A stretch of 64,000 nt of DNA from Actinotalea lenta. Lineage in GTDB: Bacteria; Actinomycetota; Actinomycetes; Actinomycetales; Cellulomonadaceae. Under the pieces are notes generated by a model. That model had not been told where the DNA came from. It did no database searches and saw only the letters and a program-made list of their open reading frames with translations. The translations under genes and the position numbers were made by a program. Shown here piece by piece: positions 18,098-41,617 of this stretch. The stretch covers positions 2,569,946-2,633,945 of the forward strand of contig NZ_JAUQYP010000001.1 in assembly GCF_030586465.1 (NCBI RefSeq), written 5' to 3'. The stretch's first letter is position 1, and each line of letters opens with the position of its first letter.

Positions 18098-18113
18098 TGG
18101 CAACCGCTCGACA
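18098..18113. promoter_or_regulatory. Candidate LacI operator upstream of uidA
   Basis: TGGCAACCGCTCGACA matches 13 of 16 positions of the consensus TGGCAACCGGTTGCCA drawn from the other sites of this island. It is the most degenerate member but is correctly placed, 66 bases before the uidA start. Confidence 0.5.
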
Positions 18114-18178
18114 CAGCAGCTGGGCCGACGCCAGTGTCGAGCTCGTGGCCGAGAGCCGGCCGCGCGGAGGAGGCGACG

Positions 18179-19966
18179 ATGCTGCGACCCCAGGACACCC
18201 CGACCCGCGAGCGTCGATCGCTCGCCGGCTTGTGGGACTTCCGGCTGGACGCGGCCGGTGAGGGCCTGTCGAGCGGCTGGTACGAGGGTCCCCTCCCCGA
18301 GGCACAGGCGATGCCGGTGCCGGCGAGCTACAACGACGTCCTGGTCGGTACGCACAGCCGGGACCACGTGGGCGATGCCTGGTACCGGACGACGGCGTTC
18401 GTGCCCCGCGGCTGGGCCGGGCAGCGCGTCGTGCTGCGAGTGGACTCGGCCACGCACGCCGCAACCGTGTGGGTCGATGGCACGGAGGTGATGAGCCACT
18501 CCGGCGGCTACACGCCGTTCGAGGCCGACATCACCGACCTGGTCACCCCTGGCGAGCAGATCGCTGTGACGGTCGTGGTGAACAACGAGCTCTCGTTCCA
18601 GACGATCCCGCCGGGGTACGTCGAGGACACCCCGCAGGGGCGCCGTCAGCGGTACTTCCACGACTTCTACAACTTCGCGGGCCTGCACCGGCAGGTGTGG
18701 CTGTACGCCACCCCGCACACCCACGTCGACGACATCACCGTGGTGACGGATCTGGATGGCACGACGGGTGTCGTCCACTACCGGGTCACGGCCGCGGGCG
18801 ACGACTCGCACGACGTGAGGGTGAGGCTCCGGGATGCCGAGGGCACCGAGGTGGCACGCACGACGGGCCCCGAGGGCGAGCTCCGCGTGGTCGACGCGCA
18901 CCTGTGGGCCCCGGGCGACGGCTACCTGTACGACGCTGCGGTCGAGCTCGTCGCCCCCGACGGCGCGGTCATCGACGTCTACCACCAGAGCGTCGGCATC
19001 CGGACCGTCGAGGTACGCGGCACCGAGTTCCTCATCAACGGCAGCCCGTTCTACTTCCGCGGGTTCGGGCGCCACGAGGACACCCCGGTGCGCGGCAAGG
19101 GCCACGACGACGTGTTCCTCGTGCACGACATGGAGCTCATGTCGTGGATCGGCGCCAACTCCTTCCGGACCTCGCACTACCCGTACGCGGAGGAGGTCTA
19201 CGAGTACGCCGACCGCCACGGCATCGTCATCATCGACGAGACCCCCGCCGTCGGGCTGAACATGGGGATCGCGGGGGGGATCTTCGGCGGACCGTCGTTC
19301 GAGACCTTCTCCCCCGAGACGCTGAACGCGACCACCCGCGAGGCGCACGCCCAGGTCATCCGGGAGCTCGTGGCACGGGACAAGAACCACCCGAGTGTGG
19401 TGATCTGGTCGATCGCGAACGAGCCCGAGTCCCACACCGAGGCCGCCCGGGAGTACTTCGAGCCGCTCTTCGCCCTGGCCCGCGAGCTGGATCCGACCCG
19501 GCCCGTCGGCTTCGTGAACGTGATGCTCTCCCCGCACGGAACCTGCCGCCTGTCGGACCTCGCCGACGTGCTCATGCTCAACCGGTACTACGGCTGGTAC
19601 GTCCAGACCGGCGACCTGGCGAACGCCGAGACCGCCTGGCGCACCGAGCTCGAGGCCTGGGCGGGCGACGGCAAGCCGATCATCATCACCGAGTACGGGG
19701 CCGACACGATCGCGGGTCTGCACTCCCTGACGCCTGAGCCGTGGTCCGAGGAGTACCAGGTCGCCTACCTGGAGATGAACCACCGGGTCTTCGACTCCGT
19801 CGATGCGGTGGTCGGTGAGCACGTGTGGAACTTCGCCGACTTCCGCACCTCGAGCGGCGGCGTGTTCCGGGTCGACGGCAACAAGAAGGGCGTGTTCACC
19901 TACGACCGCCGGCCCAAGGCGGCAGCCCACGCGCTGCGCACCCGCTGGACCGCCGAGCGGGACTGA
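18179..19966 (+). CDS. uidA: Beta-glucuronidase (GH2)
   Basis: Hydrolyses beta-D-glucuronides to D-glucuronate. With the ATG at 18179 (after GGAGGAGG) the protein has 595 residues, close to the ~600 of E. coli UidA. Domain order is jelly-roll sugar-binding, Ig-like, then TIM barrel. The acid/base is Glu415 in ANEPES and the nucleophile Glu505 in TEYGADT, nearly the E. coli numbering. [13 protein letters not shown] near the end contains the N-K pair that recognises the uronate carboxylate. An upstream in-frame extension to 18008 has intergenic composition and was not used. No signal peptide: the enzyme is cytoplasmic and needs imported substrate. Confidence 0.95.
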
Positions 19967-19996
19967 GGCCCGGTCGACGGCGGGTGGGAGCACACC

Positions 19997-40058: not shown

Positions 40059-40132
40059 CCCCGGGTGCGTGGGGGCCTGACTTGGCTCAGTGGCGCACCA
40101 GATGCGCACCAAGGCCCGACGAGGAGGTCACC

Positions 40133-41566
40133 ATGGCTGTCATGACCGTTCCGTCCGCACCCGCGACGGCATCGACCGCTGTTCCCAGGCTCACGCTCCG
40201 CAACTACCTGGCGTACGCCGCCGGGGACGCCGCGAACAACCTGTCGTTCACCATGGCGGGGATGTTCCTGATCCTCTACTACACGAACGTGGTGGGGCTC
40301 GAGGGCGCGGTCATCGGCACGATGTTCCTCGCCGTGCGCTTCATCGACGCGATCACCGACGTCGTCACGGGCCGGATCGTGGACGCCAAGAGGCCGGGCC
40401 GCCTGGGCAAGTTCCGGCCGTTCGTGCTGTGGTTCTCGTTCCCGCTGCTGGTGGCGAGCATGGCGATCTACTCGGCCAAGGTCTTCTTCCCCGGTATCGC
40501 CGGCACCGCGGCGGTCGTGTACATGTACGCGACCTACATCCTCATGGGGTCGGTGTTCTACACCCTCGTCAACATCCCCTACGGCTCGATGGCCCCGACG
40601 GTCACCCAGGTCCCGACCGAGCGCGGCAAGCTGGCAGCGTTCCGCGGCTACGGCGCCGCGATCGCGGTCTTGGCCCTGGCGTTCATCATCTCCCCGCAGA
40701 TCCGTGCCAACACGGGCAACCCTGCGGGCCTGCAGCAGTCGCTGTTCGTGACCACCGCGGCGTTCGTCGTGGTCGGCATGGGCCTGTACCTGTTCTTCGT
40801 CTTCAACCTCAAGGAGCGGGTCGCCCGCCCCGAGAACCCGGTCACGCTGCGCGACTCGGTGCGCACGCTCACCAAGAACAAGCCGCTCGGCTGGTTGTCC
40901 CTCGGCGCCGTGCTGTTCCTGACCGGCCTGACCGCACTGAGCACACTGGGCTCCTACGTGGCGATCTACGTCCAGCGTGACGCGCAGTTCATCGCCTGGA
41001 ACATCCTTGCCCAGACCCTCGCCCTGTTCGTCGTCGGCCCGCTGGTCCCGACCATCGTGCGGACCATCGGCAAGCGGACCGGGTACGTCGGGCTCGGCGC
41101 GGTGATGGTCGTCGGCGCGGCGGTGCTGGCGTTCGCCCCGCTGTCCACGACCCCGCTGTACGGTCCCGTCGCCTTCTTCCTGATCGGCATCGGCGTGCAG
41201 GGCGTCAACACCCTGATGTGGGCCCTCGAGGCCGACACCGTCGAGTACGGCGAGTGGAAGACCGGGCAGCGCACCGAGGGCACCACGTACGCGGTCTTCT
41301 CCTTCACCCGCAAGATGGGCCAGGCGATCGGCGGCTTGGTCGGTGGCCTCGCACTCACGTGGGCAGGGTTCAGCGCCGCGTCCGCCTCGCAGGGCGAGGC
41401 CCAGGCGGATGGCGTCGCGCAGAACATCCAGCACCTGGCCGGCCTGCTCGTGGGTGGGTTCGCGCTCGCATCGATCGCCGTGATGCTGCTCTACCCGCTG
41501 ACCGAGGCGAAGTTCTCGGAGATCACCGCCGAGATCGCAGAGCGCCGGGGGACGAAGGCTTCGTGA
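40133..41566 (+). CDS. GPH-family sugar:cation symporter, glucuronide carrier-like (UidB/GusB type)
   Basis: A 477-residue membrane protein with about 12 helices of the glycoside-pentoside-hexuronide family. Typical motifs: NYLAYAAGDAANNLSF at the start, AVRFIDAITDVVTGRIVD after TM2, GKFRPFVLW, and DTVEYGEWKTGQRTEG in the last third. ATG at 40133 with GAGGAGGT upstream. With a cytoplasmic beta-glucuronidase in the same locus, it most likely imports glucuronides, like E. coli UidB. Ends in a long hairpin terminator. Confidence 0.9.
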   Translation: MAVMTVPSAPATASTAVPRLTLRNYLAYAAGDAANNLSFTMAGMFLILYYTNVVGLEGAVIGTMFLAVRFIDAITDVVTGRIVDAKRPGRLGKFRPFVLWFSFPLLVASMAIYSAKVFFPGIAGTAAVVYMYATYILMGSVFYTLVNIPYGSMAPTVTQVPTERGKLAAFRGYGAAIAVLALAFIISPQIRANTGNPAGLQQSLFVTTAAFVVVGMGLYLFFVFNLKERVARPENPVTLRDSVRTLTKNKPLGWLSLGAVLFLTGLTALSTLGSYVAIYVQRDAQFIAWNILAQTLALFVVGPLVPTIVRTIGKRTGYVGLGAVMVVGAAVLAFAPLSTTPLYGPVAFFLIGIGVQGVNTLMWALEADTVEYGEWKTGQRTEGTTYAVFSFTRKMGQAIGGLVGGLALTWAGFSAASASQGEAQADGVAQNIQHLAGLLVGGFALASIAVMLLYPLTEAKFSEITAEIAERRGTKAS

Positions 41567-41577
41567 GCTGCCCCGCA

Positions 41578-41617
41578 ACGCCCGGCTGCGCACCGCTGCG
41601 GGTGCCCAGCCGGGCGT
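41578..41617. terminator. Long bidirectional hairpin after the symporter
   Basis: ACGCCCGGCTG pairs with CAGCCGGGCGT (11 bp), with an inner GCACC/GGTGC stem and a 6-base loop. Located 11 bases after the symporter stop and 65 bases from the convergent TRIC gene's stop; it marks the right edge of the glucuronide island. Confidence 0.8.

Follow-up and report, generated by a model that had tools for sequence, protein, structure and literature searches.

How does a bacterium that carries genes for glucuronide cleavage and glucuronate isomerization use the resulting sugar acid when the classical downstream enzymes are missing? We examined this question for a gene island in Actinotalea lenta, analyzing a window of 64 kb, by which we mean the whole stretch of DNA under study. 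The island is probably a glucuronide/glucuronate regulon that bypasses the Entner-Doudoroff route by means of a LarA homologue, a kinase, and Gnd.

Pfam and NCBIfam searches of the 64-kb window identified uidA, uxaC, uxuB, a PfkB kinase gene, a larA homologue, gnd, larE, larB, larC, lacI, and a GPH symporter gene. Every gene named in the preliminary description, which had proposed a glucuronide gene set clustered with larA, gnd, larE, larB, and larC, was thus recovered. The searches also placed a PF01261 TIM barrel, an ABC transporter, a GH3 glycosidase, and lacI in the island, none of which had been listed there before.

The upstream steps are encoded at one end of the island. The GH2 β-glucuronidase UidA (18179-19966, + strand; PF02836/PF02837/PF00703) would release glucuronate, which the isomerase UxaC (23326-24735, − strand; PF02614; NF002794 at 528.6 bits against a cut-off of 387) would convert to fructuronate. 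UxuB (21926-23329, − strand; PF01232/PF08125) would then reduce fructuronate to D-mannonate; its assignment as fructuronate reductase rests on context, as the NCBIfam model for D-arabinitol 4-dehydrogenase scores higher (277 bits) than that for fructuronate reductase (245 bits) and neither reaches its cut-off. A putative sugar-acid kinase of the PfkB family (20853-21929, − strand; PF00294) is encoded directly after uxuB. The xylose-isomerase-like TIM barrel that follows uidA (19997-20815, + strand; PF01261) had no match in the NCBIfam search, and we set it aside as a hidden mannonate dehydratase because no more than 12 of the 80 named LarA loci have a homologue of it, at 32-40% identity.

The larA homologue (24835-26118, + strand; PF09861) is followed by a LacI-family regulator gene (26119-27135, − strand; PF00356/PF13377) and by gnd (27313-28767, + strand), which encodes an NADP-type 6-phosphogluconate dehydrogenase (TIGR00873 at 682.2 bits against a cut-off of 426.7). 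The genome holds three 6PGD-domain genes, and a second copy outside the island is 79% identical to the island gnd. Three genes would supply the nickel-pincer cofactor to the LarA homologue: larE for a sulfur transferase (28866-29732, + strand; TIGR00268 at 268 bits against a cut-off of 150), larB (29725-30402, + strand; PF00731 AIRC domain), whose position beside larE is conserved, and larC for a nickel insertion protein (30426-31661, − strand; PF01969 at 430.7 bits). The last of these is also the final gene of an ABC transporter operon, from which it is separated by 22 bp.

This peptide/nickel-type transporter (31684-36918, − strand; PF00005/PF00528/PF00496) comprises an ATPase (31684-32523), a permease-ATPase fusion (32520-34352), a permease (34349-35290), and a binding protein (35359-36918), all on the − strand. 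A role as nickel importer was considered, since the best model for the binding protein is NikA, at 127.5 bits against a cut-off of 393, and larC closes the operon; the binding protein, however, accompanies a GH3 gene in two other loci (L105 and L107), and the transporter may or may not carry nickel. The GH3 glycosidase gene of the island (37254-38978, − strand; PF00933) encodes a protein that scores 108 bits against a β-N-acetylhexosaminidase model with a cut-off of 207. Finally, a GPH-family glycoside/glucuronide symporter is encoded at 40133-41566 (+ strand; PF13347), and its homologues lie inside some LarA loci of relatives.

The island shares uxaC and uxuB with the classical UxuA-KdgK-KdgA route of glucuronate catabolism but differs from it in what follows. 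The preliminary description had found neither uxuA nor a KDPG aldolase gene in the window and had regarded copies elsewhere as evidence against its pathway; both absences extend to the whole genome, which has no match to UxuA (PF03786; 5 of 14 control genomes positive) or to the PF01081 aldolase (8 of 14 control genomes positive). Both PF00920 matches in the genome are IlvD, above cut-off. An enolase-superfamily acid-sugar dehydratase (L005) was set aside as ManD, since its best model is talarate/galactarate dehydratase (200 bits, compared with 91 bits for ManD), each score being below cut-off.

The LarA homologue, present as a single copy in the genome, is a predicted nickel-pincer D-mannonate/D-gluconate 2-epimerase of the GntE type, which would invert C2 of D-mannonate to give D-gluconate. 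Its nearest PDB entry is 4NAR (217.6 bits over 383 residues; next structure 32.3 bits), which PMC7583248 describes as GntE2, a proven mannonate/gluconate epimerase. We matched its residues through the PDB-search alignments to D72, R75, H108, H174, K184, H200, and K298 of reference LarA. The corresponding catalytic and cofactor residues D52, R55, H86, H171, K181, H197, and K296 are invariant in 19 aligned sequences that include the window protein, as is a hexonate-epimerase signature of E172 V173 and W292. An EV or ES loop with a Trp is given as the signature of LarA groups 18-20 (PMC7583248). The window LarA thus shares catalytic residues, loop, and Trp with GntE2 and GntE1, although the 217.6-bit match makes it only a distant relative of GntE2. 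It scores 156.9 bits against the hexonate equivalog NF052594, under the cut-off of 500 for a model named for group 18, another clade. A group 18 protein (585 bits against the same cut-off), 29% identical to the window LarA, occupies the same slot in locus L083. GntE1 is reported from C. glutamicum (PMC7583248, PMC11770544); our C. glutamicum control genome contains UxaC and gave no Lar_N match.

Five of the island's intergenic regions contain one palindromic operator, TGGCAACCGGTTGCCA, among them the region ahead of gnd-larE-larB. All seven operator-like sites in the 64 kb stand ahead of island units, against 0.20 sites expected: two overlapping sites before uidA (18088..18113, 3 mismatches each to TGGCAACCGGTTGCCA), one between the divergent uxaC and larA (24766..24781, 2 mismatches), two between lacI and gnd (27167..27182 and 27234..27249, 1 mismatch each), one before the ABC-larC operon (37055..37070, 2 mismatches), and one before the GPH symporter gene (40043..40058, 3 mismatches). 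The GH3 gene has no such site in front of it. Because the consensus was derived from the window itself, 38 named loci of relatives served as an independent test; 25 sites fall in their upstream windows (69,308 bp in total), compared with 5 in 656,743 bp elsewhere. In relatives, too, the operator is over-represented ahead of these genes. At a limit of 2 mismatches, 7 of 17 loci viewed singly have no operator-like site, including L097 and L103, which share the window's kinase. The LacI-type regulator probably acts at TGGCAACCGGTTGCCA to control the set.

The preliminary description had proposed looking for the same grouping in relatives, and it is common there: of 36 loci from the order, 26 carry uxaC or uxuB close to the LarA orthologue. 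Among 80 named LarA loci, uxaC and/or uxuB occur in 56 and both in 47, and uxuA in none; in the other 24, neither uxaC nor uxuB was found within the locus DNA. This grouping is not due to chance. On the other hand, gnd is present in only 14 of the 80 named loci and 5 of the 36 order loci. The 20 UxuA loci examined, hand-picked from 58 genomes, contain neither larA nor gnd. The LarA orthologue occurs in 44 of 386 genomes of the order, 42 of which encode UxaC and none UxuA. The 166 UxaC-positive genomes divide into 42 with LarA only, 46 with UxuA only, 78 with neither, and none with both (11.6 expected). This exclusion is weak at the genus level (one shared genus, 4.0 expected, P 0.049), and UxuA is found in 6 of the 20 genomes that have a distant LarA alone.

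The route from mannonate through gluconate and 6-phosphogluconate into the pentose phosphate pathway, as first proposed for the island, is well supported by comparison, while the individual enzyme activities are predictions. It agrees with the genome-wide absence of UxuA and PF01081, the LarA residues and likeness to 4NAR, the operator before gnd-larE-larB, and the FGGY gluconokinase-like genes of some relatives. 6-Phosphogluconate would most likely come from the island PfkB kinase, possibly from a GntK encoded elsewhere in the genome, and Gnd would oxidize and decarboxylate it to ribulose 5-phosphate. Growth by this route would presumably depend on nickel.

The kinase is where the evidence divides. 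In several relatives, its slot holds an FGGY gene, although just 17 of the 80 named loci and 6 of the 36 from the order have one; gluconokinase was the best model for all seven FGGY proteins tested, with scores below its own cut-off. PfkB kinases in the same slot, 66-70% identical to the window protein, were found in 2 of the 80 named loci (L097 and L103). A further 29 named loci have uxuB and no FGGY, PfkB, or GntK homologue, and the two genes typed after uxuB in these encode a cupin and a universal stress protein. Since three unrelated kinase types (FGGY, GntK, and PfkB) occur at or near the same place across loci, the island's PfkB protein is a candidate gluconate or mannonate kinase of a type not yet described. 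Against our main reading, it resembles KDG kinases rather than gluconokinases, and GntK sits outside the island in an 18-kb stretch with no operator-like site.

This resemblance would fit a hidden KDG branch, in which L005 forms KDG, the PfkB enzyme phosphorylates it, and the resulting KDPG is split by an aldolase from a family other than PF01081. The nearest PDB entry of the kinase is the KDG kinase 2afb (119.6 bits), and the island kinase clade is sister to kinases beside uxuA (support 96/99) in a tree that used 5 of 7 uxuA-locus kinases (L185 lacked a matching gene call and L190 was incomplete; L147 was also without a gene call). L005 is an acid-sugar dehydratase with no assigned substrate, and the aldolase search covered PF01081. 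Nevertheless, we consider this branch improbable. It gives no reason why LarA, larEBC, and gnd should belong to the regulon, the genome has no PF01081 aldolase, and L005 adjoins an FAD-linked oxidase gene at a great distance from the island, in a 19-kb stretch that lacks operator-like sites. The kinase does not reach the cut-offs of the KdgK models NF041332 (99.8/440 bits), NF040938 (33.3/400), and NF052444 (25.6/400), its best NCBIfam model being NF041633, an aldolase/sugar kinase fusion (162/700). The Gly-Gly of the kinases beside uxuA is replaced by Thr-Ser in all three island kinases (window, L097, and L103). A Tyr to Asn change relative to solved KDG kinases was dropped as a marker because the kinases beside uxuA have serine at that position. 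We take both positions to touch the substrate.

The two middle steps may instead be reversed, with the kinase making 6-phosphomannonate and LarA epimerizing it to 6-phosphogluconate, the same destination. This is the order described for L. suebicus (PMC6978723), the kinase gene directly follows uxuB, and the KM values reported for mannonate are high (120 mM for GntE1 and 17 mM for GntE2; PMC7583248), but GntE2 is described in the latter source as acting on unphosphorylated mannonate, and kinases resembling gluconokinases fill the slot in several relatives, although such enzymes may accept mannonate; we regard this order as rather improbable. It is likewise rather unlikely that the PfkB protein acts as a mannonate 6-kinase, which would be new to its family in specificity, and that the LarA clade of actinobacteria is a nickel-dependent 6-phosphomannonate 2-epimerase; the two would together supply the missing genes for orphan activities of L. 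suebicus, and a nickel-pincer enzyme would then work on a sugar-acid phosphate. Very improbable, in our view, is another acid as the LarA substrate. Glucarate/mannarate or a uronate has been suggested for group 19, and the high KM of GntE1 and a uronate context speak for it (PMC7583248), yet the neighboring enzymes are expected to form mannonate and to draw on 6-phosphogluconate, and there is no UxuA to consume mannonate.

If the main reading is correct, use of a common host- and plant-derived sugar acid would be nickel-dependent in many actinobacteria, and annotation that seeks only uxuA and kdgA could wrongly score such genomes as glucuronate non-users. The pathway also offers a concrete, testable answer to a question raised in PMC7583248, namely what GntE-type enzymes do natively when their context is uronate metabolism.

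The idea of such a pathway was proposed for Thermotoga maritima in 2012, as recounted in PMC6978723 and PMC7583248. As expected of a Thermotoga-type gntE-gntK-gnd hexuronate shunt, uxaC, uxuB, a gntE-like larA, and gnd lie together in the island with one shared operator. The UxaR locus of T. maritima (gnd, uxaE, uxaD, gntE, gntK) is described as placing hexuronate genes under the same control as gntE, gntK, and gnd (PMC3750489); its regulator also governs a retained kdgA-kdgK-uxuB-uxuA set, and the system serves pectin/galacturonate. That regulator is of the GntR type, whereas ours is of the LacI type, and the island differs further in having uidA, the cofactor genes, and a PfkB kinase, in a genome without uxuA or the PF01081 aldolase. 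The galacturonate-to-phosphoketolase pathway of L. suebicus is similar in that an isomerase route joins 6-phosphogluconate and 6-phosphogluconate dehydrogenase in a redox-neutral manner, but according to PMC6978723 it phosphorylates before epimerizing, with kinase and epimerase genes unassigned there. Relative to these systems, the apparent sole use of the route is new here, as are its actinobacterial spread, the single regulon that includes gnd and the cofactor genes, and the PfkB kinase.

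The preliminary description had grouped the glucuronide genes into one island, and models from Pfam and NCBIfam, with which we assigned the domains, place all of them between 18 and 41.6 kb of the window (positions 2569946-2633945 of contig C1; genome of 3,307,754 bases in 3 contigs, 100% complete). uxaC, uxuB and a PfkB kinase gene form a single minus-strand operon with 4-base overlaps between neighbours, from which larA diverges. Downstream of larA lies lacI, on the opposite strand, and gnd, larE and larB are oriented away from lacI. We assigned UxuB from this gene context, since NCBIfam ranks D-arabinitol 4-dehydrogenase (277 bits) ahead of fructuronate reductase (245 bits) for it, with both under cut-off.

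The closest solved structure to the window LarA is 4NAR (217.6 bits; lactate and malate racemases reach at most 32.3 bits), which is GntE2 of T. maritima, reported to epimerise D-mannonate to D-gluconate (accessible text of PMC7583248). According to the same text, groups 18-20 of the LarA family are marked by an EV/ES loop and a W, matched here by E172 V173 and W292. The alignment also shows, in the window protein, the residues that serve catalysis and cofactor binding in LarA. Signature, catalytic and cofactor residues are invariant across 19 aligned sequences, the window's included, and remained so in 22 after three distant ones were added. In NCBIfam, the protein scores highest against the hexonate epimerase model of group 18, with 157 bits, far short of the cut-off of 500.

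The absence of uxuA and KDPG aldolase, previously noted for the window, extends to the whole genome: UxuA (PF03786) and KDPG aldolase (searched as the PF01081 family only) each gave 0 matches, with 5 and 8 of 14 control genomes positive, respectively. Both PF00920 matches were rejected as Edd, as they score as IlvD over cut-off. The three PF13378 matches are an o-succinylbenzoate synthase (over cut-off), an enolase (by sequence) and L005, an acid-sugar dehydratase-like gene without a specific assignment that adjoins an FAD-linked oxidase gene. LarA is present in one copy. There are three 6PGD-domain genes, and the island gnd is 79% identical to one elsewhere. Gluconokinase is the best model for none of the seven FGGY_C matches of the genome; the one GntK-type gluconokinase, over cut-off, is flanked by genes for an HD-domain protein and DNA primase.

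Across 386 genomes of the order, 64 had a LarA match, which we divided into 44 orthologues (≥51% identity; G015 and G029 counted from fragments only) and 20 distant homologues (26-33%). UxuA occurs in 58 genomes (54 over cut-off) and UxaC in 166. UxaC accompanies 42 of the 44 LarA orthologues, and UxuA none of them. LarA is present without UxuA in 42 of the 166 UxaC genomes and UxuA without LarA in 46; none has both (11.6 expected; Fisher 1.4e-7, uncorrected for relatedness). Exclusion is weak at the genus level, where LarA and UxuA occur in 18 and 24 of 107 genera with 1 in common (4.0 expected, P 0.049). Neither a LarA orthologue nor UxuA was found in 78 of the 166; a distant LarA is present in 13 of these 78.

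UxuA is present in 6 of the 20 distant-LarA genomes. Distant LarA lies 271-502 bp from a uxaC match in seven of the 20, one of which (G266) also has UxuA. The one typed among these seven, at locus L083, is a group 18 enzyme over cut-off (585 bits) surrounded by uxuB, an FGGY kinase gene, gnd, lacI, larE and larB; thus, the same slot is filled by two LarA clades. The 36 order loci with a LarA orthologue contain uxaC or uxuB in 26, larE/larB/larC in 30, FGGY in 6, GntK in 4, gnd in 5 and uxuA in none.

Genes of this set also occur near LarA in named genomes, which partly overlap the order genomes, so that the two collections are not additive. The best 80 of at least 584 relatives were kept, with titles nearly all actinobacterial (e.g., Cellulomonas, Actinotalea, Streptomyces, Geodermatophilus, Knoellia, Kribbella and Actinoplanes). 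Counts are lower bounds because only 53 of the 80 loci exceed 20 kb: uxaC in 50, uxuB in 53, both in 47 and neither in 24 (available locus DNA); larE/larB/larC in 36; gnd in 14; an FGGY gluconokinase homologue in 17; GntK in 5; and a window-type PfkB kinase (66-70% identity) in 2. None of the 80 contains uxuA. Conversely, none of 20 UxuA loci, hand-picked over several families from the 58 UxuA genomes, contains larA, gnd, FGGY gluconokinase or larEBC; uxaC is present in 11 of them, and 7 encode a kinase with 31-39% identity to that of the window.

Eight Kribbella loci (L117, L125, L126, L128, L134, L136, L142 and L144) carry LarA orthologues at 66-69% identity, and uxaC and uxuB are absent from their available DNA; the L126 neighbour gene is flavin monooxygenase-like. 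In Geodermatophilaceae locus L124 (8925-12549), larA is flanked by genes for a PfkB kinase sharing 27% identity with the window kinase and for an enolase-superfamily protein homologous to L005 (27%), possibly a different use of the epimerase.

The palindrome TGGCAACCGGTTGCCA has seven sites in the window at ≤3 mismatches (0.20 expected): two overlapping before uidA, one between uxaC and larA, two between lacI and gnd, one before the ABC-larC operon and one before the GPH gene. No such site precedes GH3. At the same threshold, none was found in 19 other own-genome stretches (other gnd copies, GntK, L005, and FGGY and PfkB kinases). Because the consensus was derived from the window itself, relatives are the fair test. 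Across the 38 named loci whose lacI homologue is ≥50% identical, all related species kept, the regions upstream of island genes (69,308 bp) hold 25 sites at ≤2 mismatches and the remaining 656,743 bp hold 5 (47-fold). The 20 UxuA loci have 5 operator-like sites in 358,245 bp. Of 17 loci checked singly, 10 have a site at ≤2 mismatches and 7, including L097 and L103, have none.

larC follows the last gene of the ABC transporter operon after 22 bp and ends that operon, so the transporter may have a nickel or glycoside role. An OppC-type permease and an ABC ATPase are fused in a single reading frame (window 32520-34352, minus strand), and a second ATPase is separate. The GH3 glycosidase (window 37254-38978, minus strand) scores under cut-off as a beta-N-acetylhexosaminidase. 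Loci L096, L097, L105 and L107 encode homologues (66-83% identity) close to larA, and in L105 and L107 the ABC binding protein is present as well. GH3 and uidA might point to glycosaminoglycan-like oligosaccharides.

The PfkB kinase substrate is the least certain step of the route. An FGGY kinase gene directly follows uxuB in L046, L049, L050, L052, L059 and L083 and is placed after gnd in L055; gluconokinase is the best model for all seven (308-390 bits, under the cut-off of 649). A PfkB kinase occupies the post-uxuB slot in the window, L097 and L103, and the two kinase types occur together in none of the 80 named loci. The three PfkB kinases group together with full support; a long branch separates them from their sister group of five uxuA-adjacent kinases (96/99). 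They carry Thr-Ser where the uxuA-adjacent kinases have Gly-Gly. These features suggest that a KDG-kinase relative was recruited as a gluconate or mannonate kinase.

Among the listings from a literature collection with few subscription journals, none describes this gene combination in actinobacteria or a PfkB gluconate or mannonate kinase. In L. suebicus, the routes are linked via 6-phosphomannonate, with genes not assigned (accessible text of PMC6978723). For T. maritima, a pathway of this kind had already been put forward in 2012 (cited in PMC6978723 and PMC7583248), so the idea of the route is not new. T. maritima has gnd-uxaRED-gntEK and kdgAK-uxuBA under a common regulator (PMC3750489, accessible text).
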